From an uncultured bacterium (GTDB taxonomy: Bacteria; Planctomycetota; UBA1135; GCA-002748355), in assembly GCA_937858895.1 (NCBI GenBank), contig CALLZN010000298.1, positions 1 through 47,695 of the forward strand: a stretch of 47,695 nucleotides of DNA, in the 5' to 3' direction. Every line of letters begins with the position of its first letter. The stretch's first letter is position 1. Below are positions 3,101 through 16,675 of the stretch, piece by piece. A program made the position numbers and the translations under genes. Under the pieces are notes generated by a model. It was not told the origin of the DNA and did no database searches. It worked only from the letters and a program-made list of their open reading frames with translations.

Positions 3101-3671
3101 GCACGAGGCCCGGCGTCGCATCGAAGTAGTCCTGGTCGAGGCCCAGCGGTCGATCGAAGCTCAGCCGCAACGTCGCGTCGCGCGGCACGACGGGCGCTGC
3201 CTTCGGCAAGCCCAGCGCGAAGGCGAAGTGCGGATCGACGAGCGGAAGCGCACTCGTCGCCGCCGCCAAGGCTGCGTCGAAGGGCACGGGCTCGAGCTCG
3301 GCGTCATAGAGGATGAGCAGTTGGCGATGCCCGATGCGCGGATCGTGCGGCAAGAAGCGAAAGCGAGCTCCTTCGAAGAGGTGCGGGTTCTCGCTGTTCA
3401 GGTTCGGATGAACGAGGACGTTGCGCCGGAAGAGCACCGGCCGCCGGCGCCGCGCATCGAGCCGATCGGCGTCACCCGCAGCAACGCGTTGCCACGTGTA
3501 AACATCGACGAGGCGACCGTACTCGACGCCGAGCAGGGCGGCACGAGCGCCGTCGATCGCCGCCTCGGCGCGGCGGTCCCCGCTCGCGCCGCCATTGCAA
3601 GCCGCCGTCGCCAAGAGGACGAGCAGCCAAGTGCCGATCGAATAGCCACACGAAGGGACTTTGGGTTGCAT
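111..3671 (-). CDS. Large secreted lipoprotein with bacterial Ig-like region
   Basis: This 1186-residue protein is predicted to be exported and lipid-anchored. The chosen ATG gives a short basic start, a hydrophobic stretch and the lipobox LLATAAC with the lipidated Cys at residue 25; the reading frame runs further upstream but that part does not look like a protein start. The mature part is rich in beta-strand-like, Asp/Gly/Pro-rich sequence. A stretch around the middle (PPRF-NGTPLPNGQDVDP---VTVHFS-PID) resembles the bacterial Ig-like fold seen in SbsA/Big_5 domains, and an earlier stretch (ATLRLSFDRPL) resembles another copy. No enzyme motif is visible. The neighbour on the other strand is a disrupted porin, so the 196-bp gap between them holds divergent promoters. 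The role is unknown; an outer-membrane or surface structural lipoprotein is an inference. Confidence 0.85.
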   Translation of the reverse strand: MQPKVPSCGYSIGTWLLVLLATAACNGGASGDRRAEAAIDGARAALLGVEYGRLVDVYTWQRVAAGDADRLDARRRRPVLFRRNVLVHPNLNSENPHLFEGARFRFLPHDPRIGHRQLLILYDAELEPVPFDAALAAATSALPLVDPHFAFALGLPKAAPVVPRDATLRLSFDRPLGLDQDYFDATPGLVQVLELAGDPEVLGTALAYTPVAARVLVADAGRSLLVDLEVSGLEAKGRVANPTGLPEALDTVTANTRIALPTSGPLAQRFRVRADNVPQFNDRGMSGVSAVIRDFRSGSTLDANRGSLPSFEAPRLTARRDMGLLSMDPLARTLRVHKRKADLVLRPRVPFVDGPYSLQDGRPLGPRRVPQERPLLSGDLIWQTVLSPHTGESVAICAEILENRAIVAREGDPALGTGMAAEIAELVVDRVHGYDSAGNALSFEVEDAGAGKDCTAVVHFCSSLLVGAQSVEVGDRERVAEFLTIVPAPPRFDANGTPLPNGQDVDPAASVTVHFSVPIDATTLRTEDNMVLANHLGSEPAFITHPKTGGLTIVPTQVTDLDRDGTTLRLNTPLGLFHEVGERETYYWHLFDGELGPRGRSGELLDLNEGQASITAISAALRLDAKAPSNLVGSYLVRMNAVDENGTSEASSSMDHFGQFQLRNGRMYGSVGQRFSRVLDTVRMSAVRNDLSRRCESGPSFLYSTPLLNVGRVEPFVSEGSRMQQAYREVDFDLSYTDPAELEIDVEQLHWAPFVARVPAKLTYDLFDRISMTLAHSEKRPDIRVLPNCLPEFGASLSGLETTFEANYLDNGVRAEVVKDQAYTIDPNNAFAAVTGSTMISYPRFRESFTWRDRRLMSIAANDAILGLGGSQRPDDGTAPDRTRDVSSPHIPEVDPDLDGANARQDDDYKGNRRQDLSPFALPLLVDLSIHPDDVANGKCIADNLFQVGVIGLGLNARVHSTGGIDGQLQEILVDPTNERQARGGWIGGAGNSVLVPPGDSVVYWAQADFVRRVSVVTSGYFDTLLPGRNEVQGPAGWTPTPKGFPDLEKLGAEYGAHEFAVLVDPAPEDLPLGTELVIEYRGAERFDRAADPYSFEDNETAASRNNLLNPHYACEQYRYLASGRVDARGVTTYVQDIDDLVDTARGVAPRYLNYRLTFVNNTTVTPIRTPYVSSLAILWRVRPRR

Positions 3672-3867
3672 GCTTCTAGAGCTCGGAATGGCTTCTCTCC
3701 CTCTCAGGGGTGTGGCGGACCGACGAAGTGCTGATAGTCCCGACAGGTTCACGAGGAACGCAGGCCAAGCCGGAACTGTCGACGCGCGCTTCAGCCCCGT
3801 GACCAGCGACTTCGAAAGCAAGCAGATCCGTTCGGCTCTCCTTGAACCGCATCGCTGGAGTTCTTGC

Positions 3868-5105
3868 GTGCGATACAGCTCAGTGCTTCGTGTAGGGATT
3901 TCTCTCATTTCTCTGGCAGCGATCGTCAACGCCCAGGCAGCCCAGGACAGCGTCGAGACCGAACGCGCCACGGTGACGGCCGCGCGCGAGTGGATCGGCG
4001 GACGGCCCTTCTCGGAGTGGACGAGAGTCAGCGGCGACTGGGGCGGCTACCGCACTCGGCTCGAAGAAATCGGTATCGAAGTCGCCGGCAGCTACACCGC
4101 GGACTGGGTGAGCCCGCTACACGGCGGGCAGCGTTCGCGCGACACCTACGTCTCCTTGACGGACGTCAACGTCGCCTTCGACCTCGACACGCTTCTCGGG
4201 CTCGAACGCTCGCTGCTCTATGTGGACGCCTACCAAATTCACGGGCGTCAACCATCGAACGACATCGGCGACGCACAAGGTGTGTCCAACATCCAAGGTC
4301 CGAACACCGAACAGGTCGCCGAGCTTTGGTTCGAGACTTGGGTCGGTGAACGACTGCGCTTCAAAGTCGGCAAGGTCGACTTCAACAGCGAGTTTGCGTT
4401 CAACGAGTTCGGTGGCGACTTCGTGCACTCGACAGTCGCCATCACGCCATCCATCGTCGCCTACCCGACCTATCCGAATCCAGCGGCCGCGTTCATCGCC
4501 TTCTGTCGCCTCGAAGAATCGAGCTACGTTTCGATCGGCGCCTTCGATGGAGCAGGCGCAGACGGCTTCAAGACCGGTAGGAAGGGCCTTGGTGGCCCGT
4601 TCGAGAGCACACAGTCGGACTCGTGGTTCTTTGCCTGCGAAGTCGGCACGGCCTGGGCTGGCGGGAACACATGGGGTTCTGGCCGCCTCGCCCTCGGCGC
4701 TTGGCACCACAGCGCGCAGTTCGCGCAGTTCAGCGGCGGGACGAGCGACGGCAGCTCTGGTGCGTGGTTCACCTTCGAGCAGGTCTTGCATCGCGAGAAC
4801 CCCGAGCAGCAGGGCGACGACCAAGGTCTGCGCGGCTTCGTCACGCTCGGCTTCGCGGACGACGATGTGACCCTCTTCGGACGCACGACGACGGTCGGAT
4901 GCTCGTGGGTCGGTCCGCTCGAGCGGCGTGACTCCGATGTCCTTGGCCTCGCGATGAACAACGCCGACCTCAGCGACCGCAGTGGTGCTGGCACACGCCG
5001 GCCTTCAGTGTCAAACCGGACCTTCAATACGTCGTCAATCCGGGTGGTCGCGCCGGCGTCGACGATGCCATCGTGTTTCTGCTGCGCTTGGAGGTCACCC
5101 TCTGA
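3868..5105 (+). pseudogene. OprB-type carbohydrate-selective porin, disrupted near the 3' end
   Basis: A GTG start at 3868 sits 7 bases after a GGAG site and opens a signal peptide ending near NAQA. The mature protein has the OprB hallmark GDWGGYRTRLEEIGIE near residue 50, then beta-barrel sequence with the typical KVDFNSEFAFNEFGGDF region. OprB porins let sugars diffuse across the outer membrane. The frame stays porin-like to about 4970 (LGLAMNNADLSD) and then degenerates. The conserved porin C-terminus reappears in a different frame from about 4995, with FSVKPDLQYVVNPGGRAGVD, ending LRLEVTL and TGA at 5103-5105. Roughly 20 expected residues before it are missing, so this looks like a small deletion plus frameshift. 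It is either a true pseudogene or an assembly error; the rest of the gene shows no other decay. Confidence 0.8.
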
Positions 5106-5118
5106 CAGAGGCGATGCA

Positions 5119-5135
5119 GCGGCGCGCGGCGCCGC
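5119..5135 (+). terminator. GC-rich hairpin after the porin gene
   Basis: A perfect 7-bp stem (GCGGCGC / GCGCCGC) with a 3-base loop lies 13 bases after the porin stop codon. There is no T-tract, so it is only a terminator-like structure. Confidence 0.3.
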
Positions 5136-5177
5136 AGTTCCGTGTTGTAAACTGAAGCGAGAGAGAGGCCCCCAACC

Positions 5178-5477
5178 ATGCTGTATTTCGCCCTTCCGAC
5201 CCTGATGACCCTGCTCGCGCTGCAGTCGCAGTCCGGGCGTAGCTTCCACCGTGTGAGCCGCTTGCCCGTGACCGAGCCTGCGACCCAGGTCGTCGAAGCC
5301 TCGACGCTGCGTCAAGAACGTCTCCCGCTCGTGCGCATGCGCTCAGGCCGCGCTTGGTCGCGCTTCCACCACAGTCGCCTGCCGCAGGCTGGAGCGCTGC
5401 GTCCCGAGGTCGACGTCGTCGACGCGAGCACGCCCCAAAGGTTCGAACGGCGCGGCTACTGGGGCCAACGCCGCTGA
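5178..5477 (+). CDS. Small hypothetical exported protein
   Basis: This 99-residue reading frame starts with ATG preceded by a purine-rich AGAGAGAGG about 9 bases upstream. It opens with a hydrophobic stretch (LYFALPTLMTLLAL) that could be a signal peptide or a membrane anchor. The rest is Arg- and Ser-rich with no family I recognise, including FHRVSRLPVTEPATQVVEAS and a C-terminal RRGYWGQRR. Codon use is GC-rich at third positions like its neighbours, which supports coding. It follows the broken porin on the same strand and ends 7 bases before the convergent glycosyltransferase stop. Function is unknown and the call rests on the start, the SD-like site and the composition only. Confidence 0.5.
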   Translation: MLYFALPTLMTLLALQSQSGRSFHRVSRLPVTEPATQVVEASTLRQERLPLVRMRSGRAWSRFHHSRLPQAGALRPEVDVVDASTPQRFERRGYWGQRR

Positions 5478-5484
5478 CGCTCCG

Positions 5485-6405
5485 TCAAGAGCTGCGTCGG
5501 CCGCGCACGAGGAGCTGGCCCGCTGCCTTCTTGACTTCACCAGCGAGCGCCGGCGCCATGCGCAAGAAGCGCTTCCGTAGGCGCGCGCGGACGCGGCGCC
5601 GCGCGCGAGCGTCGAGGTCTTGCTGCTCGAGCACGCGGCGCATCTCGCGCCAGAGATCCCACATCGGCATGACGACGCGGCGGCCGTGCTTGGGATCGAA
5701 CCAAGTCGCGAGGCGCTGCGGCGTCGCGGCCTTGATCATGGACGTCTCTGGATGCAGGCGGCGCACGAAGAGCGGCTCGTCGATCTCGCAGAACTTGCCC
5801 GCGAAGACCAGCTCGAAGAGCAGCGTCTGGTCCGAGGCGACGTGGGTCGCGATTCTCGGCGTCGCCGCGAGCGCCTTCGAACGGAAGACACCGAAGATCG
5901 ACATCCACACGTCGTCGCTTTGGTCGGCCAGGTCGAGCAGGCGCAACGCGCGGGTCGCCGCGTCGTCGTCGACGATGGAAAGGCCTGGGTTCGAGTCGCG
6001 CAGCAGTTGGTCGTCTTCATCGATGTAGCGCGTGCGCGGGAAGGCGACGACGCAGGCCTCGTCGGCTTCGAGGGCTGCGACACAACGCGAGAAGAAGCCC
6101 GGGGCGCAGAGGTCATCGTGGGCGGCCCACTTGAAGTACTTCCCCCGCGCGGCCTCGAAGACGAGGTTGTAGTTGCCGGCTCCACCGACATTGACATCGT
6201 TGCGCGCCACGGCGACGCGCGGGTCGTCGCGCGCCACGCGCTCGCAGATCGCCACCGTGTCGTCGTCGGAGGCGTTGTCGCGGACGAGCACTTCGATGTC
6301 CGTGAAATCCTGGTCGAGGATGGAGCGCAGCGCAGCTTCGATCCACCTGGCGCCGTTGCGCACCGGCACGCCGATACTGAGGGTCACACTCCGGACTGCC
6401 ACCAC
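5485..6405 (-). CDS. Family 2 glycosyltransferase
   Basis: This is a GT-A fold glycosyltransferase of about 306 residues that would transfer a sugar from a nucleotide-sugar donor at the cytoplasmic face. The N-terminus shows the GT2 core: LSIGVPVRNGARWIEAALRS, then DFTDIEVLVRDNASDDDT, and a DxD-like AAHDDL after GKYFKW. A Tyr/Phe-rich acceptor region follows (SDDVWMSIFGVFRS). The C-terminus is basic, with no clear membrane segment. The preferred start is GTG at 6405, with GAGG 5 bases upstream and 16 bases after the stop of the preceding large gene. A longer GTG start at 6441 would overlap that gene by 20 bases. It is the last gene of the TPR-ExbB-ExbD-cyclase-repeat run, so it may glycosylate an envelope component of that system; the substrate cannot be told. 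Confidence 0.9.
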   Translation of the reverse strand: MVAVRSVTLSIGVPVRNGARWIEAALRSILDQDFTDIEVLVRDNASDDDTVAICERVARDDPRVAVARNDVNVGGAGNYNLVFEAARGKYFKWAAHDDLCAPGFFSRCVAALEADEACVVAFPRTRYIDEDDQLLRDSNPGLSIVDDDAATRALRLLDLADQSDDVWMSIFGVFRSKALAATPRIATHVASDQTLLFELVFAGKFCEIDEPLFVRRLHPETSMIKAATPQRLATWFDPKHGRRVVMPMWDLWREMRRVLEQQDLDARARRRVRARLRKRFLRMAPALAGEVKKAAGQLLVRGRRSS

Positions 6406-6421
6406 CAAGGTCCTCGCTCTG

Positions 6422-9400
6422 TCACCGCAACTTGCCTTCACGCTTCTCGAGGAGCGGCGTGAAGTAGCGATAGTAGACCTCGAGGCTCAGCACACACATG
6501 GCCGTTGTATAGGAACGATCGCGGCGCGTGTCCTTCGCGTAGCGCGCATAGGCGCCGACCGGGGCGAAGCTGCCGTCTTCGCTCTGGCCACGCGGTAGCT
6601 CGACGCGCAGCTTTTCGTTCCAGAGTCGCCACGCTTCGCCGCCGCGGAAGAAGCACGCCAGGGTCCCGTAGTACCAGAAGTACGGATTCCCCGCCCCCCG
6701 CTGCACGAAGTCGTCGTCACTCGCGCGCGCATAGCGTTCGATGCGCCGATCGGTCGTGTAGCGCAGACCCGCCTCGACGCGCTCGTCTTCGGGATCCTGC
6801 CCCAGCAAGAGCAGGCAGAAGACCGACGCCGGCGTCGAGGCCGGCAGCGTGCGCCAGGTCATGCGCAGGCGCTGCGGCTCCTTCGTGTAGAGAAAGTAGC
6901 CGTAGCGGTCGTCGAACATGGAGAGCAAGAAGCCCTTGGCCAGTTCGAGCGAGCGCTCGGGCACGTCGATTCCGGAGCGTCGCGCCGACTCGAGGGCCAT
7001 GACCTGCCAGCTCGTGACCGAGGCACGCGCGTAGCGATCTTCGGGCCGTAGGAACGGGCTGTAGTAGCCCCAACCACCGAGGCTGTCCTTCGGCCCGGCG
7101 ACGTTCTGCTGCTCGACGATCCAGTCGACCGCGTGCTGCAGGGGCTTCGTCAACGAAGCGATCTTCGTGAGCGCGTAGCACTCTGCAAGCGCATACGTCG
7201 TGATGCCGTGGCTGTAGGCAGTCGAGCGCCCGAAGTGCCCGCTCTCTTCGTCTTGTGTCGACAACAGATAGCGCAGCGCGCGCGTGACGTTCGAAGCGTA
7301 GAGCCCCTTGCCCAGGTCGTCGTTGTTGGTCGTGCTCGGTGTGAGGTCCTGCGGCGGCAGGTTCCCCGCGCCGAGGAAGGCCAATAGACAAAGCGCCGTC
7401 TTGCCGACGCGCACCTCGCCGTACTTTTCATCGACGTCGTCGACATCGCCCCAACCGCCGTCCTCGCGTTGGATGCGCGCGAGGTAGCGCAGACCGCGCT
7501 GCACCGCGAGTTCGGTCTCTTGGGTGCCGCCGAAGCGTTCGAGGGCCTCGACCTTCTTCTGGCCGAAGCGGTTGGCGTAGAACGAGGGCTCGCTCGCCAC
7601 CTTCTCGCTGCGCGGGCGCCGGCCCGCCTGCCGCTGGGCTCGATCGACGGTGACGGACGGCGCCGGCACGCTGCCCACCGAGGCCGTCAGGCTCCTGCGA
7701 CGCGGCTCGTCGCGGCGCGGCGCAGCGACCTTGGCGGAGAGCTGTGCGATCGCTGGCATGGCCAGTGCCTCCGGCCGGCGATCCAGGGCCTCGCTCGATC
7801 GCGCGTGCGCATCGCGTGGCGCGCGCGGCGCAGCTGCGTCGTCGACCGCGACCGCGGCCGCGGCGACGCCCGGCGCGACTTTGGGTCCATCGCCTGTGAC
7901 GGCGGACCTTCGCCCAGTATCGAGCGGCGGAGAGAGCGCACCGCTGCGGCGCTCGAGACGGAAGCGCGGGGGCGGCAGCGTCGCCGCCGCAACGACGCCT
8001 TCTGCCCTGAGCGGCTCTCCGCTGCGCTGGGGCGCACCGAGCGCTGCCGTCGTAGCACGTTCGGTCTTCAGGCTGCGCGCTTCGATCGCGGACTCGCGCA
8101 GAGCGTCGCCCTCTCCACCCCGAAGTGCAGGAGAAGCCAACGGAGGCGCAGCGGCAGCTGTGCCGAGCTCGGGCGTCTTCACCGCGACGAGGGCCCCGGA
8201 CGTCACGGCAGTACTGCGACGCTCGGCGCTCGGTGGCGGCGCACGACGACGACGCGAGGTCGTGAGCGAAGGCGCGGGCGGCGCGATCGACGCCAAGTCA
8301 CGCTCGGCGTCGCCGAGCTCGGCCGAGACCGTGGCGAGCGCTGCCTCTCGCGCGCGGGCGACGTCCGTCGCGGCGGCGCGCAGCGCGGGCGCTGCCTCGC
8401 TCTTTGTCGCCGCCTTCGAGGCGAGTTCGGACGCGGGTCGCGTCGCGTCCCGCAAGGCCGGTGCGGCGACAGCCAGTTCACGCGGGGCGAGGTCGCTGTC
8501 GGCGCTCTTGGCTACGGGCGCTTGCGGCGCTGGCCGCACGAGGTCGCTTGCGATGGGCCTCGTCTCGGGCAGCATCGACGCCGCGGCCGCCGCGACGTCG
8601 TCGGCGCTGCGCTGTACGTCAGCCTTCTCGCGCAAAGCACGCGGGCTCGCCTCAAAACGCGAAGTCGCAGTCGAAACTGCCGTCGGCTCCGTGAGCGGCG
8701 CGTCGGCGGCGCGACCGCGCAGCGGCGCATCGGTGACGGCCTTCGCCGCGATGGCGTGCTTGGCCTCGACCGCGGCACTGGCCTCCGGCGCGGCGACGCT
8801 CGCGACTTGCGTCGCGCTCTCGGGACGCGTCGGCGGAGGAAGAGAGCGGGCCACGACCGACGACACGTCGGCCGCGACGACGTCCAACGCCTGCGGCGCG
8901 GCGACTTCGAGGTCGAAGGCCGCCGTGCTGCGCTCAGGACTCGGACTCGGGTTGACGAGCTTCTCGGTCGAGACCTCGACCGCCGCCGCTTTCGCCGTGC
9001 TATCGCGACCGTCCTTGACCTCGATCGCTTGCAAGTCCGACGTCACGTCTCGAGCCTCGACGCGCGGCCCATCGAGGGCGGCAGCCAAGGCTTGCTGCGC
9101 GCGCACGGTCGGCAGCGGCAGCGCCGTCGGAGTTGCGCGCTCGTCGCTCCGAGCGCTGAGCTCCGCGCTCGGCGCTTCGACACCGAGATCACGCTCGAAG
9201 CCCTTGAACTCGAGGCGCTGCCCGAGGTCGGAGGCCGCGCGCGCAGGCTCCGCGTCGGGCGCGCGATCGCCCTTCAGTTCGGCCGCGCTCAGAATGCGCA
9301 CCGTCGCCGTGTCGTCGCCGAGCTCGGGCACCGGCGGCAAGAAGGTGCGCACGATCTCGACGCGCATGAGCCAGAGCAAGAGCACGAGGTGCAGCAAGAG

Positions 9401-10561
9401 CGAAGCGAGCAGGCACTGCGTGATGAGGTCGAGCGCCGTCCAGCGTCCGCCGACCGCGAACAGCAAGAAGAGCAAGAAGGCGATTGCGGCGACGATGGCG
9501 AGCACCGCTTCGAGCTGGCCTTGCCCCGCCCACCACGGTCGCACGATGCGGGCCGAGGCCTGGTACTGGAGCGAGCTTTTCTCGTCGACGAGCAGGAGGC
9601 CACGCCCATCGTTCGACGGCCGCGGGCCGCGCAACGAACCGAGCGCCTCGAGCCCCGGCACCGCGAGCGGCGCCACGAAGGCGAGCCCCTCTTTCGAAGG
9701 CTCGACCCACGAGTGCAGCAGGCGACGGCGTCCGTCTTCGAAGCGCCGCACGAAGTAGAGGACCTCGCCCGCTGCGTCGAAGCAGGGATCCCGGTCGAAG
9801 AAGCTAGGATAGGGTCCCTCGTCGCCGGCATCGTCGAAGAGCTTGCGCGCAGGCTCCGTCCCTGACAGCGAAGCTACATGCAAGACAGCGTGCGCGCCGC
9901 GCGCGATCCACGGATCGCGCCGCGCGAAGACGACGCGCAGGCCGTCGCTGTGCGGCGCGGGATCGGTCTCGTCGAGCGGTCCGTTGATCGTCGGCGGCAA
10001 GGCGCGCAGGTCGTCGAAGCCGCGGCCGTTCCAACGCGCCGACCAGAGGTCGAAGCCGCCGCCCGGCCCTTCACGATCGGAGGCGAAGTAGAGCCGGCCA
10101 TCCACGCCGAAGGCCGGCGCCAAGTCGTGGGACGGCCCGTCGATGCTGACGAGGAGCTCGGGCTCGAGACGCGGCCGCTGCGGGTCGAAGAGCACGAGCT
10201 CGGTTTCGCGGCCCAGCGGTTGGCCACACTTGCGTGCGTAGACGAGGCGGCCATCGGGCAAGGCAGCGCTGCGGCCCCGCACGGGGCCCAGGAGCTCGAG
10301 GTCGGGCCGCGGCGCGTCGAAGACGAGCATCGACGCGTTGCGCAGGGCGTGGGCGCTCTTCGGCGCGGAGGCCGCGTTCGCTGCACCCGCAGCCGTATAG
10401 TAGATCGGTCGCCCCGAACGCAGGAGCACGAGACTCAGGAGGATGGCGACGAAGACGAAGAGCGAGAGCAGGGCAAACACGCGGCGGCGCATGCGCTTCG
10501 CTTCGCCCTTGCTGGCAGCGCTGCTGCTCGCCTTCGTGTCGTGCTCCTGTCCGGCTGCCAT
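6422..10561 (-). CDS. Giant membrane protein: PD40-like propeller, disordered spacer, squalene-cyclase-like barrel
   Basis: A 1379-residue protein starting at an ATG with GGAGGA 7 bases upstream and 13 bases after the exbD stop. Order of parts: a short basic cytoplasmic N-terminus; TM1 (residues 27-48); a TolB/PD40-like beta-propeller with LPDGRLVYA, VDGRLYFASDREG and SDGLRVVFA repeats (about 95-335); TM2 (351-371); TM3 (378-402); about 600 residues very rich in Ala, Arg, Ser and Val (about 410-1010), likely disordered; and a squalene-hopene-cyclase/prenyltransferase-like alpha-barrel (about 1015-1379) with QW-type motifs such as REDGGWGDV and LGGWGYY. The usual cyclase DxDDTA acid motif is not in its normal place, so the barrel is probably binding or structural rather than a terpene cyclase. 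With ExbB and ExbD just upstream, TM3 plus a long periplasmic spacer plus a folded C-terminal domain recalls TonB/TolA design. That role is an inference. Confidence 0.9.
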   Translation of the reverse strand: MAAGQEHDTKASSSAASKGEAKRMRRRVFALLSLFVFVAILLSLVLLRSGRPIYYTAAGAANAASAPKSAHALRNASMLVFDAPRPDLELLGPVRGRSAALPDGRLVYARKCGQPLGRETELVLFDPQRPRLEPELLVSIDGPSHDLAPAFGVDGRLYFASDREGPGGGFDLWSARWNGRGFDDLRALPPTINGPLDETDPAPHSDGLRVVFARRDPWIARGAHAVLHVASLSGTEPARKLFDDAGDEGPYPSFFDRDPCFDAAGEVLYFVRRFEDGRRRLLHSWVEPSKEGLAFVAPLAVPGLEALGSLRGPRPSNDGRGLLLVDEKSSLQYQASARIVRPWWAGQGQLEAVLAIVAAIAFLLFLLFAVGGRWTALDLITQCLLASLLLHLVLLLWLMRVEIVRTFLPPVPELGDDTATVRILSAAELKGDRAPDAEPARAASDLGQRLEFKGFERDLGVEAPSAELSARSDERATPTALPLPTVRAQQALAAALDGPRVEARDVTSDLQAIEVKDGRDSTAKAAAVEVSTEKLVNPSPSPERSTAAFDLEVAAPQALDVVAADVSSVVARSLPPPTRPESATQVASVAAPEASAAVEAKHAIAAKAVTDAPLRGRAADAPLTEPTAVSTATSRFEASPRALREKADVQRSADDVAAAAASMLPETRPIASDLVRPAPQAPVAKSADSDLAPRELAVAAPALRDATRPASELASKAATKSEAAPALRAAATDVARAREAALATVSAELGDAERDLASIAPPAPSLTTSRRRRAPPPSAERRSTAVTSGALVAVKTPELGTAAAAPPLASPALRGGEGDALRESAIEARSLKTERATTAALGAPQRSGEPLRAEGVVAAATLPPPRFRLERRSGALSPPLDTGRRSAVTGDGPKVAPGVAAAAVAVDDAAAPRAPRDAHARSSEALDRRPEALAMPAIAQLSAKVAAPRRDEPRRRSLTASVGSVPAPSVTVDRAQRQAGRRPRSEKVASEPSFYANRFGQKKVEALERFGGTQETELAVQRGLRYLARIQREDGGWGDVDDVDEKYGEVRVGKTALCLLAFLGAGNLPPQDLTPSTTNNDDLGKGLYASNVTRALRYLLSTQDEESGHFGRSTAYSHGITTYALAECYALTKIASLTKPLQHAVDWIVEQQNVAGPKDSLGGWGYYSPFLRPEDRYARASVTSWQVMALESARRSGIDVPERSLELAKGFLLSMFDDRYGYFLYTKEPQRLRMTWRTLPASTPASVFCLLLLGQDPEDERVEAGLRYTTDRRIERYARASDDDFVQRGAGNPYFWYYGTLACFFRGGEAWRLWNEKLRVELPRGQSEDGSFAPVGAYARYAKDTRRDRSYTTAMCVLSLEVYYRYFTPLLEKREGKLR

Positions 10562-10574
10562 CGAGTGGTCCTCC

Positions 10575-10991
10575 TCAGCGCCCCTTTTGCTGCGGCGTCG
10601 CCCCGATCGCGATCTGACGCAGCGGCGCCGCACGACAAAGGTCGAGGACGCGCGCGACGACGCCGAACTGCGTGTTCGTGTCCCCGCGGATCAAGACTTC
10701 TTGCTTGGCGTCGCGCTTGGCCGCGCTGCGCAGCATCTGCTCGAGCGTCGACATCGGCACGTCCTTGCCGTCGACGCTCAAGGCGCCGCTCGCGAGGACG
10801 TTGATGATGATGGGCCGGACCTCGCTGCGCGCGACGCCGGTCGTCGCGTCTGGCAAGCGCAGGTCCATCTCGACTTCTTCTTTGCGAAAGGTCGTCGCGA
10901 CGAGAAAGAACACGAGCAACAGAAAGACGATGTCGATCAGCGGCGTCAGGTTCGGCGTTGCGTCGACGTCGTCGCCGAGATCAAGCCGCAT
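10575..10991 (-). CDS. exbD: ExbD/TolR-family energy-transducing protein
   Basis: This 138-residue single-pass inner-membrane protein has the standard ExbD/TolR layout. There is a short cytoplasmic N-terminus, then the signature LTPLIDIVFLLLVFFLVATTF in which the Asp is the conserved proton-carrying residue, then a periplasmic domain (EVEMDLRLPDA, IIINVLASGALSVDGKDV, VLIRGDTNTQFGVVARVLDL). The length is normal for the family. In known systems ExbD sits inside an ExbB pentamer and converts proton flow into motion passed to TonB or TolA. Its start overlaps the end of the exbB gene by 11 bases, and the giant propeller/cyclase-repeat gene follows 13 bases after its stop, so the three are surely co-transcribed and translationally coupled. 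Confidence 0.95.
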   Translation of the reverse strand: MRLDLGDDVDATPNLTPLIDIVFLLLVFFLVATTFRKEEVEMDLRLPDATTGVARSEVRPIIINVLASGALSVDGKDVPMSTLEQMLRSAAKRDAKQEVLIRGDTNTQFGVVARVLDLCRAAPLRQIAIGATPQQKGR

Positions 10992-11649
10992 CGCGCTTCT
11001 CCGGAGGCGCCGCGAGGAGCTCGACGAAGGGCGCGAGGCGCTCGTCGCAAGCGAGCATCAAACGCCGCGCCTTGTTCGAGAAGTGCGAGGCCACGAGCAT
11101 GGTCGGGATCGCGACGCAGAGACCGGCGATCGTCGTCACGAGCGCGACCTCGATGCCGGAGGCGAGCATCTCGGGCTCGCCCATCTTGGTCTTCACGACG
11201 CGGTGGAAGGCCTCTTGGATGCCGAGCACCGTGCCGAGCAAACCGAGGAGCGGCGCGACGGCGGCGATCAGGTTGAGGGTGCGGACGTTCGCGCGGAGTT
11301 TCTCGAGCTCTTTGTGAGCCTGGTCCTCCATCGCGAGCTCGACTTCACGGAGGGCGCGGCCGCGGCGACGCAGCGCGGCGCCCAATATGCGCGTCGCGGG
11401 TGCATCGATGTCGCGGGCGAGCGCGGTCGCTCCCTCGATGTCGAGGGCTTCGATCTTCGCTTCGACCTCGCTGAGTCGAAGGGGCAAGACGCGCGAGCGA
11501 CTCAGCGCCCGCCAACGTTCGAGCGTCACCGCGACCGCGACCAAGGAGCAAAGCGCGATCGGGATCATGACGGGCCCGCCCGAACTCAAGAAGTCCCAGA
11601 CGGTCTGCACGCTCGTCTCGGTCTGCAGCATTGCCACACTTTGCATCAT
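10981..11649 (-). CDS. exbB: ExbB/TolQ/MotA-family proton channel protein
   Basis: About 222 residues with the three membrane segments of the MotA/TolQ/ExbB family. The first is in GGPVMIPIALCSLVAVAVTLE near the N-terminus; the others are LIAAVAPLLGLLGTVLGIQEAF and the segment around EVALVTTIAGLCVAIPTML, which hold the family's conserved Gly-Thr-Val-Gly-type and Thr/Ala/Gly motifs. It would form the inner-membrane ring that drives ExbD. The reading frame runs far upstream into the TPR gene, but homology begins near residue MMQSVAMLQTE. An ATG at 11649 or a GTG at 11658 (AGGA 5 bases upstream, 1 base after the TPR gene's stop) are both possible starts. The tight junctions on both sides place it in the TPR-exbB-exbD-giant operon. 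Confidence 0.92.
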   Translation of the reverse strand: MMQSVAMLQTETSVQTVWDFLSSGGPVMIPIALCSLVAVAVTLERWRALSRSRVLPLRLSEVEAKIEALDIEGATALARDIDAPATRILGAALRRRGRALREVELAMEDQAHKELEKLRANVRTLNLIAAVAPLLGLLGTVLGIQEAFHRVVKTKMGEPEMLASGIEVALVTTIAGLCVAIPTMLVASHFSNKARRLMLACDERLAPFVELLAAPPEKRDAA

Positions 11650-11659
11650 CACGGTCACG

Positions 11660-14600
11660 TCAATCCTGGCCGAGTTTGTCGAGAAGGGACTTTGCCTGGC
11701 GGGCTTCTTCGGACTCGGCGAAGCGCTCGACGACTTCGCCCAAGAGCTTCTTGGCCTTGGCAACTTGCTTGTCCTCGAGGTAGGTCTTGCCGGCCTCGAG
11801 CAGGCCCTTGCGGACCCACTCGGCGTGACCATAGAGGATCGTGAGCTTGAGCCAGGCATCGATCGCCGGGCCTCGCTGCTTGGCCTCGAGCCAGGCCTCG
11901 CCGATGCGGAACTGCGCTTCGGCGCCGATCGGACCGTCCGAGAGCTTGGTCGCGCTCTCGTAGCTCGCGACCGCTGCTGCATGGTCCTTGCGGGCTTGCC
12001 GCGCGCGACCGAGCCAGAGCGCAGCACGCGCGCGCTCGCCGACCGGCGCGTCGCTGTTCTTCTGCGTCCAGGCCTCGAGCGAGGCGATCGCCGCGGCGGC
12101 CCGCCCGTCTTCGAGGTCGCAGTGCCCCAAGTGCAGCCGCGCCATCGACGAGCGACGGCCGTCTGGGTCGCGCTTCAAGAGTTCGACGAAGGCGTCGCGG
12201 GCGCGCTGCCGATCCCCGCGGCGGTAGGCGCACTCGCCAGCGAAGAAGAGCGCCTCGTCGTAGAGCGACTGAGCGTCGTCGGCGCCGAGCGCGAGGATGC
12301 GCTCGAAGAGCGGCGCGGCCGCGTCGAAGGCACCGCGCTCGAAGCGCGCGAAGCCGAGACGGTAGAGAGCTTGGGCGCGGTAGCGACCTTCCGCCGCCAA
12401 CAGGAGACGTTCGGCGCTGGCATCGTCGACGCCGCCCTTGCCGGCATCGCTCGGGGCACCGAGCTTGCCGAGCTCGGCGACGCCGAGGTGGAGGCGCGCT
12501 TCGCCGGCGAGTTCTTTGTCCTTGCTCGCGTCGGCGACGCGCGCGAAGGCCGCGAGGGCCTCGGCCTCCTTGCCCAACTTGCGCAGGGTCCACGCGAGTT
12601 CATAGTCGAGGCGGTCGGGCCGCTCGAGTGCGGCACGGGCCTTCGCGTCACGGCTGAGCGCGGCGAAGACCTCGAGCGCCTCCGCGTGACGCTCGCGCCG
12701 CGCGAGCGCTACCCCCAAGGCGTAGCGCAGCTCGGGCGCGCGGGCGTGCTTGGGGAAGCGGTTCAAGAAGCTGCGCGCAGCGATTTCAGCCTCGTCGAAG
12801 CGGCCCGCGCGATGGTGCAAGGACGAGACCAACTCGAGCATGGACGCAGCACCGTCACCGATCGCCGGGTGCGCGAGAGCCGCTTCGACGCCCGTGGCGC
12901 AGGCCGCGTCGTCGCCGAGCTCGAAGGCGCACCAGGCGAGACCCTGCAGGGCCTTGGCGCCGACGTCGTCCTTGGCCTTGGCGATCTTGGCGTAACTGGC
13001 GCGAGCGGCTTCGTAGTCGCGGCGGCGGAAGGAGAACTCGGCGACCTGCAGCAGGTCGGCGTCGCGCTGGGCCACGTCTTTCTCGGCGGCAGCTGCGCGC
13101 GCGACGCGCGTCGCCGCCGCGTCGAGTTGGTCGCGCGCCGCGAGCACCTGGGCCGCGACGCGCTCGGTGCGGGCGAGGAAGGCACCGCCATCCTTGTAGC
13201 GCGCGTAGTAGCGGTCGGCGCCAACGAGCGCGCGATCGGCGTCCTTGGCTTGGTAGCTCGCGAGCACGGCCAGCGACAGGGCCTCTTCGGCGAAGGGCGA
13301 TTCGGACGCAGCGACGGCCTCGAAGCGCGTCGCGGCCTCGGCGGCGCGACCACCGAGGTAGGCGCACCAAGCGTGCTTGAAGCTCGCGCGTGCCTCGAGG
13401 TCGTGACCGGCCGGGAGCTTCGCGTAGTCGTCCTGCGCTGCGTCGAAGTTCTTCAGCGCGAAGAGCCCCTCGGCGCGGGCGAAGCGCGCCTCGATCGCGA
13501 GGCGATGCTTCGGCAGGGCATCGACGATGCGACCGGCCATCGTGACCGAGGCCTGGTGCTCGCCGAGTTCGTGCAAGGCGACGACGGCGCCGTAGAGAGC
13601 GTCACCCGTCAAGGCATCGTCCTTGACCCCCATCGCGGCGTTCGAAGCCAGGCCATAGGCATCGGCGGCTTCGCGCCAGAGCTCGAGTTCGCTCGTCGCT
13701 TCGCCGAGGTTGAAGGCGATGCGTGCCTTCGCAGCCGCGTCGATTTCACCCTGCAGTGCGCGTTGGAAGGTGAGGCGCGCATCCTTGGCCCGATCGGCGT
13801 CGAGTTGGGCGAGGCCGAGCACTTCGAGGGCGCGCGCCTTGTCAGCGGCTTCGAGGTTCTTGCGACCCAGGACGCCCTCGAGAGTCGTGATCGCCTCTTG
13901 GTGTTGGCCCAGCTGCCAGCGCAGCGACCCCGCCTCGAGGGCAGCCGGCACAGCGAGCTTGGTGTCGGCGTGGAGCTTGGCGAGCTCGGCGAAGGCCTTG
14001 GCGGCGTCCTCTTGGCGATCGAGGCGCAGCAAGGACCAAGCCCTGCCGTTGCGTGCCTCGGCGACGTGCGGGCCCGCGGCTTCGATCGCGGCCTCGTAGG
14101 TCGTCACCGCGCGAGCCCAGTCCTCGGCGGCGAAGCAGGCCTCGGCCGCGAGGTAGAGGCACTCGGCGCGCGCCTCGTGCTGCGGCCACTTCTTGGCTGC
14201 CTCAGCGAAGGTGTCGGCCGCCTCTCGATGCTGGCCGGATTTCGAGAGCACGAAGCCAGCGTGGTAAAGCGCCGGCATGCCGAAGGTCCCCTTGGCATCC
14301 TTGTCGCTGGCCCCGACTTGGCGGAAGACCTCGACGGCTCGCTTGCCTTCGCCAGCGTCGCGCAGACACTCGCCGAGCGCATAACCTGCCGGCAGTCGTA
14401 GGTAGTGCCCTTCTTCGACCTCGTCGACGAGGGCAGCGAGTTGCTGCGCCGCGTCCTTGAACTTCTTGCCTTCTTGCCAGAGCTTGCCGAGGCGGTAACG
14501 GCACTCCGGCCGGTAGAGCAGACCGCGGGCTTCGAGGGCCGCCACGTAAGCGTCGATGGCGCGGGCCTTGTTACCGAGCTTCTCCTCGCAGGCGCCTAGG

Positions 14601-14821
14601 CGGTACCGCGCCTCGGGCGCGAGCGGGTGCTTGGGCGCGTCGCGCAAGAAGCGCCCGAGTTGCTTGGCGGCGTCATCGAAGAGCTCGCGCTGGATGAGAC
14701 CGATGGCGACGTCGAAGCTCTCGCGCGACGGATCTTGGGCGAAGAGCGGCGCGGGCAGGGCGACGACGGGCAACGCGAGCACGAAGAGCGCGCAGCGCGA
14801 AGCCTGGTTGCGGGACGACAT
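11660..14821 (-). CDS. Periplasmic TPR-repeat protein
   Basis: A 1053-residue exported protein. The ATG at 14821 has a strong GGAGGA site 5 bases upstream and opens a clear signal peptide (CALFVLALPVVALPAPLFAQ). The mature part is one long array of alpha-helical tetratricopeptide-like repeats with the usual small-residue pattern, for example APEARYRLGACEEKLGNKA, AEARNGRAWSLLRLDRQEDA and ALYRLGFARFERGAFDAA. TPR arrays bind partner proteins or peptides, and similar repeats occur in YbgF/CpoB and BamD, which work with the Tol system and outer-membrane assembly. It is the first gene of the operon with exbB and exbD, so it is probably the periplasmic scaffold of that machine; this is inferred from position. 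A long open frame on the opposite strand is an artefact of GC-rich codon use. Confidence 0.92.
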   Translation of the reverse strand: MSSRNQASRCALFVLALPVVALPAPLFAQDPSRESFDVAIGLIQRELFDDAAKQLGRFLRDAPKHPLAPEARYRLGACEEKLGNKARAIDAYVAALEARGLLYRPECRYRLGKLWQEGKKFKDAAQQLAALVDEVEEGHYLRLPAGYALGECLRDAGEGKRAVEVFRQVGASDKDAKGTFGMPALYHAGFVLSKSGQHREAADTFAEAAKKWPQHEARAECLYLAAEACFAAEDWARAVTTYEAAIEAAGPHVAEARNGRAWSLLRLDRQEDAAKAFAELAKLHADTKLAVPAALEAGSLRWQLGQHQEAITTLEGVLGRKNLEAADKARALEVLGLAQLDADRAKDARLTFQRALQGEIDAAAKARIAFNLGEATSELELWREAADAYGLASNAAMGVKDDALTGDALYGAVVALHELGEHQASVTMAGRIVDALPKHRLAIEARFARAEGLFALKNFDAAQDDYAKLPAGHDLEARASFKHAWCAYLGGRAAEAATRFEAVAASESPFAEEALSLAVLASYQAKDADRALVGADRYYARYKDGGAFLARTERVAAQVLAARDQLDAAATRVARAAAAEKDVAQRDADLLQVAEFSFRRRDYEAARASYAKIAKAKDDVGAKALQGLAWCAFELGDDAACATGVEAALAHPAIGDGAASMLELVSSLHHRAGRFDEAEIAARSFLNRFPKHARAPELRYALGVALARRERHAEALEVFAALSRDAKARAALERPDRLDYELAWTLRKLGKEAEALAAFARVADASKDKELAGEARLHLGVAELGKLGAPSDAGKGGVDDASAERLLLAAEGRYRAQALYRLGFARFERGAFDAAAPLFERILALGADDAQSLYDEALFFAGECAYRRGDRQRARDAFVELLKRDPDGRRSSMARLHLGHCDLEDGRAAAAIASLEAWTQKNSDAPVGERARAALWLGRARQARKDHAAAVASYESATKLSDGPIGAEAQFRIGEAWLEAKQRGPAIDAWLKLTILYGHAEWVRKGLLEAGKTYLEDKQVAKAKKLLGEVVERFAESEEARQAKSLLDKLGQD

Positions 14822-15070: not shown

Positions 15071-16675
15071 ATGTGGACAACGCTCTTCAGGATCGTCGTC
15101 GCAGCGACGGTGCTCACGCTCTGCGCTTGGGCTTCGCTGACGCTCACTTCGATGACGGCAGGCGCCGCGTCTGTTCGTGGCCGTTCATCGGCGGCCGAAA
15201 GGCTGACCCGCGACGACGGCGGAGGCGGCACGATCTTCACCGACTTCGGGATGTTCGCAGACGATGACCAGGACGGCGCCGACCAAGGCGGCGCGAGCAG
15301 CGGCGAGCGACCGAACGACCGGCAAGACGCGCTCACCAGCAGCGGCAAGAACAACGCGGTCGACAGCATCCGCGTCACCCCCGTCGTGCGCGCGGTCCAG
15401 AAGGCCGGGCCCTCGGTCCTCAACATCCAAGTCGGCGACATCGTCCGCACACCCCAGGGACCGGCCTTTCGCAAACTCGGTGAAGGCTCCGGGGTCATCG
15501 TCAGTGAAGAAGGCCTCGTCCTCACGAACTGGCACGTCGTCCGCTTCAAGGAACAGCTCCGAGACGCCTTCCAGTGCCGCGTCAAGCTGCGAGACGAACG
15601 CCAGTTCCCGGCGCGCGTCATCAACACTTCGCGGGCCAATGACCTCGCGCTCTTGCTCATCACGCCGGAGAACGATTCGACCCAGCGCTTCCCGCCGATC
15701 GAGATGGGCGACTCCGAATCGCTGATGATCGGCGAGACCGTCATCGCCATCGGCAACCCGCGGGGACAAGTGAACAGTGTCACGACCGGTGTGCTCTCGG
15801 CCGTCGGCCGTTCGCTCGCCGTGAAGCCGCCGGGCGAACGACAGCCGATCCACTTCGACACCTTGCTCCAGCACGATGCCGCGATCAACCCGGGCAACTC
15901 GGGCGGCGGTCTGCTCGACCTCACGGGCAAGCTCATCGGCATCAACACGCTGATGCAGGTCGAGTCACAGAACATCAACTTCGCCATCCCGGTCGACCAT
16001 GTGCGCAAGGTCTTCGACCAGGACCTCTTGAATGTGTCCCGGCTTGCGGTCTGGTTCGGCATCGACACTGCTGAGCGCGGTGGTCGCTTCGTCGTGACGC
16101 GTGTCGTGCCCGGCAGTCCAGCGGCGCGGGCTGGCCTCCAAGTAGGCGACGCGATCGATCAGGTCGGGGAACGCAAGACCCTGGATTCCAAGTCCTACGC
16201 GAAAGCCCTCGTGACCTACCGCGTGGGACAGCGCGTGCCCTTGCTCATCCAACGTGGCGAGGCTTCGGAGTGGAAGTCGATCGACGCCTGGAGCCGCAGC
16301 AAAGGCACCATCCTCGAAGCTGGCGGCCTCGTCGTCGAACTCGTCGATGTTGTCAAAGAACGAAACATCTACCGCAGCGTGCTCGGTGACTTGCTCGAGG
16401 CCTATCGCTTCACGGGCGGCAACTTCGATGTCCTGCGCGTCATCGAAGTCGAGGAGAACGGCCCTGCGGCCAAGTTCGGCTTGCGCGAAGGCGACTTCAT
16501 CGTCGGCTACATCGTGAGCCACGACGACTTCGAATCGTGGCTCCCGCTCACCGGCGACATCGCCCAGCTCGCATCGCTCTTGCAGGTCAGCGAAGAAGGT
16601 CGCTCTCCCCGCCTCTCGGTGTGGCGCGCCACGGACGGTCTGCTCTCGGGTCGGATGCGGGTGCGCAAACGCTGA
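15071..16675 (+). CDS. HtrA/DegP-like serine protease with two PDZ domains
   Basis: This 534-residue protease starts with a hydrophobic signal or anchor (FRIVVAATVLTLCAWASLTL), then an acidic, low-complexity linker (about 45-95). The trypsin-like domain keeps the full catalytic triad: His155 (LTNWHVV), Asp191 (ANDLALL) and Ser277 (PGNSGGGLLD). A first PDZ domain (WFGIDTAERGGRF, SPAARAGLQVGD) follows, then a second C-terminal one (EENGPAAKFGLREGDFIVGY). Such proteins degrade or hold misfolded envelope proteins in the periplasm. The start at 15071 has no good Shine-Dalgarno site. It is divergent from the TPR operon across 249 bp, so the two could share regulation. Its last 89 bases overlap the end of the convergent gene on the other strand. 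Confidence 0.93.
   Translation: MWTTLFRIVVAATVLTLCAWASLTLTSMTAGAASVRGRSSAAERLTRDDGGGGTIFTDFGMFADDDQDGADQGGASSGERPNDRQDALTSSGKNNAVDSIRVTPVVRAVQKAGPSVLNIQVGDIVRTPQGPAFRKLGEGSGVIVSEEGLVLTNWHVVRFKEQLRDAFQCRVKLRDERQFPARVINTSRANDLALLLITPENDSTQRFPPIEMGDSESLMIGETVIAIGNPRGQVNSVTTGVLSAVGRSLAVKPPGERQPIHFDTLLQHDAAINPGNSGGGLLDLTGKLIGINTLMQVESQNINFAIPVDHVRKVFDQDLLNVSRLAVWFGIDTAERGGRFVVTRVVPGSPAARAGLQVGDAIDQVGERKTLDSKSYAKALVTYRVGQRVPLLIQRGEASEWKSIDAWSRSKGTILEAGGLVVELVDVVKERNIYRSVLGDLLEAYRFTGGNFDVLRVIEVEENGPAAKFGLREGDFIVGYIVSHDDFESWLPLTGDIAQLASLLQVSEEGRSPRLSVWRATDGLLSGRMRVRKR

Follow-up and report, generated by a model that had tools for sequence, protein, structure and literature searches.

The operon described here raises the question of what an ExbBD-type motor drives when the gene directly behind it encodes a membrane protein ending in a squalene-cyclase-type barrel. 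It lies in the window (the whole stretch of 47,695 nucleotides that was analysed), and its fourth gene encodes a protein of 1379 residues, referred to below as the giant. We consider that the operon probably encodes an ExbBD/TolQR-type motor together with a trans-periplasmic force transducer that carries a toroid at its tip, and we put the probability of this reading at roughly three in four.

A conserved four-gene core

Read 5' to 3' on the minus strand, the genes for a TPR protein, ExbB, ExbD, the giant and a GT2 glycosyltransferase follow one another, each overlapping the next or separated from it by no more than 16 bases, and the tight packing described in the first-pass annotation is thus present for all five. 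The TPR gene (11660..14821) has a ribosome site, GGAGGAAAGG, upstream of its ATG at 14821 and its stop at 11660; the product of 1053 residues, with TPR_16 (3e-32) and TPR_6 (5e-32) matches, is predicted from its Sec-type signal peptide to be periplasmic. The ExbB/TolQ-type motor subunit (10981..11658; 225 residues, three membrane helices) starts with GTG at 11658, ends at 10981 and matches the Pfam family MotA_ExbB at 7.7e-30, and the ExbD/TolR-type subunit (10575..10991; 138 residues, with the pore Asp20) starts with ATG at 10991, in an 11-base overlap with ExbB, and matches the Pfam family ExbD at 1.8e-28. Thirteen bases downstream of ExbD, the gene for the giant (6422..10561) starts with ATG at 10561, and the Pfam matches of its product are PD40 and SQHop_cyclase_C. 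The GT2 gene (5485..6405; Pfam 9.9e-27) starts with GTG at 6405, 16 bases past the giant. Pfam agrees with the family calls that had been made from motifs for ExbB, ExbD, the TPRs, GT2 and the two domains of the giant, and NCBIfam is also supportive. On the plus strand, the operon is flanked by genes for an OprB-type carbohydrate porin (3661-5205) and a DegP-type protease with PDZ domains (15071-16675).

With the barrel as query, matches were obtained in all of 41 related genomes, and 15 of these formed a separate top group (E < 1e-108). Fourteen loci came from genomes other than that of the window, and the order TPR, ExbB, ExbD, giant was found in all 13 that had enough flanking sequence. When about 85,000 species were scanned, 79 loci emerged; they belong to Planctomycetota wherever the record title gives the phylum and include the isolates Pla163, Pla86 and Poly30. 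All 61 loci holding the four genes keep this order, 60 of them strictly and one (L116) with a split TPR frame; the remaining 18 are incomplete through contig ends or a broken frame. The four-gene loci are spread over many genera and families of Planctomycetota. Among 392 Planctomycetota genomes drawn, the giant group scores at least 429 bits, with the next score at 240, and the 40 giants tested in a tree form a single clade with a support of 100/100.

The gene order is therefore conserved in relatives for the first four genes, and the proposed five-gene operon is reduced to a core of TPR, ExbB, ExbD and giant. The glycosyltransferase lies outside the conserved unit and is ruled out as a member of the system, because it adjoins the giant at one of the 79 loci only (L066), in the same genus as the window. 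No further conserved partner gene was found: of the 65 loci examined, about 12 share the commonest neighbour cluster.

The giant from its membrane helices to its toroid

The N-terminal half of the giant (residues 1-407) was predicted by AF2 from 64 sequences with a mean pLDDT of 87.1, and the model places TM1 at residues 10-49, a propeller at about 79-339 (9545..10327), TM2 at 347-371 and TM3 at 379-399 (9365..9427). The PD40-like propeller of the first-pass annotation is thus present, and it can now be placed between TM1 and TM2 and refined to a TolB-like type. TolB was the best PDB match in a profile search (3e-8), and the top six Foldseek matches were all TolB, the best at E 1.1e-10, although TM-scores were modest, at about 0.4.

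Outside the window's genus, the N-halves are only about 21-44% identical to that of the window giant, and the alignment of 64 N-halves contains just four invariant columns, one of which is His391 of TM3; Ser387 is kept in at least 90%. TonB and TolA dock on ExbB and TolQ via a Ser-x3-His motif (PMC12215075; PMC12204202), and the predicted TM3 bears, as Ser387-x3-His391, the Ser-x3-His part of the TonB/TolA SHLS motif. By simple hydropathy, a TM could be detected in 58 giants, 52 of which have Ser-x3-His in a TM helix; the same holds for 30 of 50 other toroid proteins, against a background of 11 among 2767 other TM segments of the same loci (0.4%). The TonB-like membrane helix proposed earlier is upheld by this histidine, which is invariant in 64/64.

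The D-box peptide of E. coli TonB comprises residues 43-54 (PMC10907165) and the histidine is at position 20, so that its strand starts about 25 residues past the histidine. Just past TM3 of the giant, 28 residues from His391 and thus at near-TonB spacing, is a putative D-box-like strand, ATVRILS (9302..9322; giant residues ~414-425). A hydrophobic-polar pattern of the D-box type occurs in 37 of 64 giants, mostly at His+26 to His+28, as against 6.0 in shuffled sequences, and it occurs in 8 of 256 (3%) later windows of the linker. The strict pattern was also sought in short toroid paralogues, where it was ruled out (1 of 37, under the shuffled 2.3).

The stretch of about 600 residues noted previously between helix and barrel corresponds to a linker that measures about 587 residues from TM3 to the barrel, is rich in Ala, Arg, Pro and Ser and is predicted to be disordered because of this composition (unstructured part at 7595..9300). 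Linkers of the relatives span 326-659 residues (median 468) and are unconserved in sequence; Ala, Pro, Ser and Arg are again abundant, and aromatic residues make up 1.4%. Unlike this freely varying linker, the C-terminal domain of 390 residues (6425..7594; SQHop_cyclase_C 8.2e-14) is about 50-60% identical between genera. AF2 confidently predicts it to be an alpha/alpha toroid (pLDDT 92.7, pTM 0.93), in agreement with the folded cyclase-type barrel recognised at first reading. This fold means that the giant is not TonB or TolA; TonB_C and VWA domains likewise had no Pfam match in the giant. The Foldseek neighbours of the toroid are type II terpene cyclases (MstE), GH76 mannanases, AprG and squalene-hopene cyclase.

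Since MstE, GH76 and squalene-hopene cyclase are enzymes, the toroid might itself be a membrane-tethered enzyme of the terpene cyclase, polysaccharide lyase or glycosidase type, with ExbBD just an operon neighbour. Pec_lyase matches in 14 of 63 family members would fit, as would an invariant polar ring at the N-termini of the inner helices (K59, Y60, H131, D188, R192, S255, Y307, Y310 and D357). The residue types of the ring are Lys, Tyr, His, Asp, Arg, Ser and Thr, and conserved positions favour the inner helices (p=0.03 against random placement, with helix positions taken from DSSP). However, as regards the first-pass question of whether the barrel keeps a cyclase active-site pocket, the catalytic DXDD motif is present in 12 of 63 toroids and is not a conserved column, and squalene/hopene cyclase activity is accordingly unsupported. 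Although the giant shares the alpha/alpha toroid fold with squalene-hopene cyclase and SQHop_cyclase_C, it has a single toroid against two in squalene-hopene cyclase, its conserved ring is polar rather than hydrophobic, and it is tethered to the membrane by a long linker. A tethered enzyme would also leave the invariant TM3 histidine and the strict linkage to ExbBD unexplained, and we regard it as quite improbable. The complement-type thioester CGEQ was found in 0 of 63 toroids, which further weakens the enzyme reading and rules out a complement-type thioester protein. The invariant polar ring argues against a terpene cyclase and suggests that the ligand may be polar, e.g., a glycan or peptide; we infer that the giant transfers force, with the toroid as a tip that binds rather than catalyses.

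Motor, mechanism and relation to known systems

In NCBIfam, ExbB matches TolQ best (75 bits) and ExbD matches TolR best (62 bits), which places both closer to the Tol subunits than to the ExbB and ExbD of TonB systems; among solved structures, TolQ chains are the best relatives of ExbB. In TolQ, Ser28 and Trp32 contact the transducer, two threonines form a threonine ring and a proline lies in TM3 (PMC12215075). ExbB S38, T143, T175/T176 and P185 are invariant in 63/63, as is the pore residue D20 of ExbD. T143, T175/T176 and P185 are the equivalents of the threonine ring and the TM3 proline, and S38 that of Ser28, with TM1 aligned by eye on the Ser-to-Arg spacing. The Trp32 equivalent is Val or Leu and thus not conserved, which counts against the transducer reading, as does the finding of the strict D-box pattern in no more than 37 of 64 giants. 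The TPR protein has a hydrophobic leader and CpoB/YbgF-type repeats, and it matches tol_pal_ybgF with 189.7 bits against a cut-off of 90.1, which is weak as an identification because TPR is generic.

Gene order, the TM3 histidine, the D-box-like strand, the motor residues and the toroid fold all agree with the first-pass proposal of an ExbBD-driven transducer that combines a TonB/TolA-like helix with a cyclase-fold tip. The operon would then encode a proton-motive-force machine of the Ton/Tol class, in which ExbB and ExbD form the inner-membrane motor and the giant acts as the transducer. Judging from motif conservation, TM3 would dock on ExbB through Ser-x3-His, and the D-box-like strand may be captured by the periplasmic ExbD dimer, as the TonB D-box is. 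The flexible linker of ~590 residues would let the toroid span the periplasm to a partner, most likely peptidoglycan or an outer-membrane component, so that the motor could pull on the target held by the toroid. With TM1 before it and TM2 after it, the TolB-like propeller would stay anchored to the inner membrane, and the TPR protein may act alongside in the periplasm, like CpoB in Tol-Pal.

A narrower form of the force-transducer explanation is that the operon is a Tol-Pal equivalent serving outer-membrane tethering and constriction, with TolQ, TolR, a fused TolB and TolA and a CpoB-like TPR protein, the toroid replacing TolA domain III. Like E. coli Tol-Pal, it has a TolQ/TolR-like motor by best score, a TolA-type Ser-x3-His helix, a propeller for which profile and fold both give TolB as the best solved relative, and a CpoB-like TPR gene above the YbgF cut-off. 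In addition, the TolB N-terminal domain (TolB_N) is absent by Pfam from the giant and from 41/41 related genomes, the controls E. coli, Caulobacter and Bacteroides all being positive, and OmpA/Pal-type domains are present in 41/41. However, the giant is found in only 15 of the 41 genomes, although all are without TolB_N, which rules it out as a general substitute for TolB. The operon is without pal, and no extra gene recurs beside the four core genes, the OmpA domains being encoded elsewhere in the genomes. Moreover, the propeller is fused into the giant at the inner membrane rather than being a soluble protein, the linker is disordered whereas that of TolA is helical, and both TPR and PD40, the families matched, are broad repeat families. 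Without the TolB N-terminal domain and with no Pal in the operon, the system is not Tol-Pal as such, and we hold its equivalence to Tol-Pal to be possible but rather doubtful.

Alternatively, the toroid may open an outer-membrane receptor for nutrient uptake, making the system a TonB-type importer. It shares with E. coli TonB-ExbBD an ExbBD-type motor, the Ser-x3-His helix, a D-box-like strand at near-equal distance and a Pro-rich linker; TonB-dependent receptor plugs occur in 41/41 relatives, and orphan toroid paralogues are TonB-like in their N-terminus and Pro/Glu-rich linker. On the other hand, the giant has three TM helices and a toroid tip, and no receptor gene is conserved beside the operon in the 65 loci. 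Of the 41 genomes, 37 already have ordinary TonB C-terminal domains, so that most of them hold a separate, ordinary TonB. We consider an importer very unlikely, and the coexistence of ordinary TonB, receptors and OmpA-type domains in the relatives' genomes indicates that the toroid system is an additional one. In the genome of the window, a 7 kb contig (L057; G000:C47) carries two ExbB-type frames, ExbD and a TonB-dependent receptor plug, and probably represents its ordinary Ton system.

The closest precedent for a toroid-tipped force transducer is provided by the vWA-tipped SHLS transducers of the PVC group, which are encoded downstream of TPR, tolQ-like and tolR-like genes (Williams-Jones et al. 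2025, PMC12204202). Both have an SHLS-type TM helix with a conserved histidine, a disordered linker, a tip unlike those of TonB and TolA, and TPR, tolQ-like and tolR-like genes upstream. They differ in that the tip is a vWA domain there and an alpha/alpha toroid in the giant, a tolR-like pair is replaced here by one tolR-like gene, the linker of the giant is several times longer, and a TolB-like propeller and two extra TM helices precede its SHLS helix. The genome of the window also has a second motor set (L058:801-4877, minus strand; G000:C285), in which TPR, ExbB and three ExbD-type genes resemble the vWA transducer layout; the contig ends before the next gene is complete.

Toroid proteins across Planctomycetota

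Since 30 of the 50 related toroid proteins carry Ser-x3-His, compared with a background of 0.4%, the toroid-tipped transducers look like a family. Ser-x3-His is found in most of the toroid clade and is absent from its sampled basal members. Distant loci with the same four-gene order, a Ser-x3-His helix and a toroid giant either have a propeller (L155, L159) or have none (L158, L160), and at L156 and L165-L167 at least ExbD is directly upstream of the giant. Short toroid paralogues, composed of one Ser-x3-His helix, a linker of ~100 residues and the toroid, are found in tandem. Such pairs or triplets, at L053:4967-8544, L055:8872-12257, L050 and L162-L164, combine Pro-Trp, the Ser-x3-His helix, a Pro/Glu-rich linker and the toroid, with no recognisable motor genes alongside; those of L055 come after mfd and a SurA-type chaperone gene, and those of L053 after mfd and an unassigned gene. 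Separately, L161:2695-11247 contains a reading frame of 2850 residues, for which roughly twelve membrane segments are predicted and which has a toroid close to its C-terminal end.

Shape changes are a noted trait of Saltatorellus clade members (PMC11481906), and S. ferox Poly30 carries the four-gene operon; a tie between the operon and cell shape in this isolate would be speculation. A still broader reading, which we consider unlikely, is that toroid-tipped transducers constitute, next to TonB/TolA and the vWA type, a third and broad class of force machines spanning the envelope in Planctomycetota, with the propeller-bearing giant taking over outer-membrane tethering or envelope remodelling in TolB-less lineages, including the shape-changing Saltatorellus clade.

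No literature linking squalene-cyclase-type domains with ExbBD in Planctomycetota was found in a search that left most subscription papers and preprints outside its reach. In the literature found, the tips described for motor-driven transducers are those of TonB and TolA, joined by vWA since 2025 only. The operon suggests an uncharacterised route by which force reaches the outer parts of the cell, and His391 offers a concrete, mutable residue for testing the transducer role. If the toroid tip is true, this class of transducers exchanges its tips freely, and a function would be gained for a large set of proteins from planctomycetes that currently bear the label squalene cyclase or prenyltransferase repeat.
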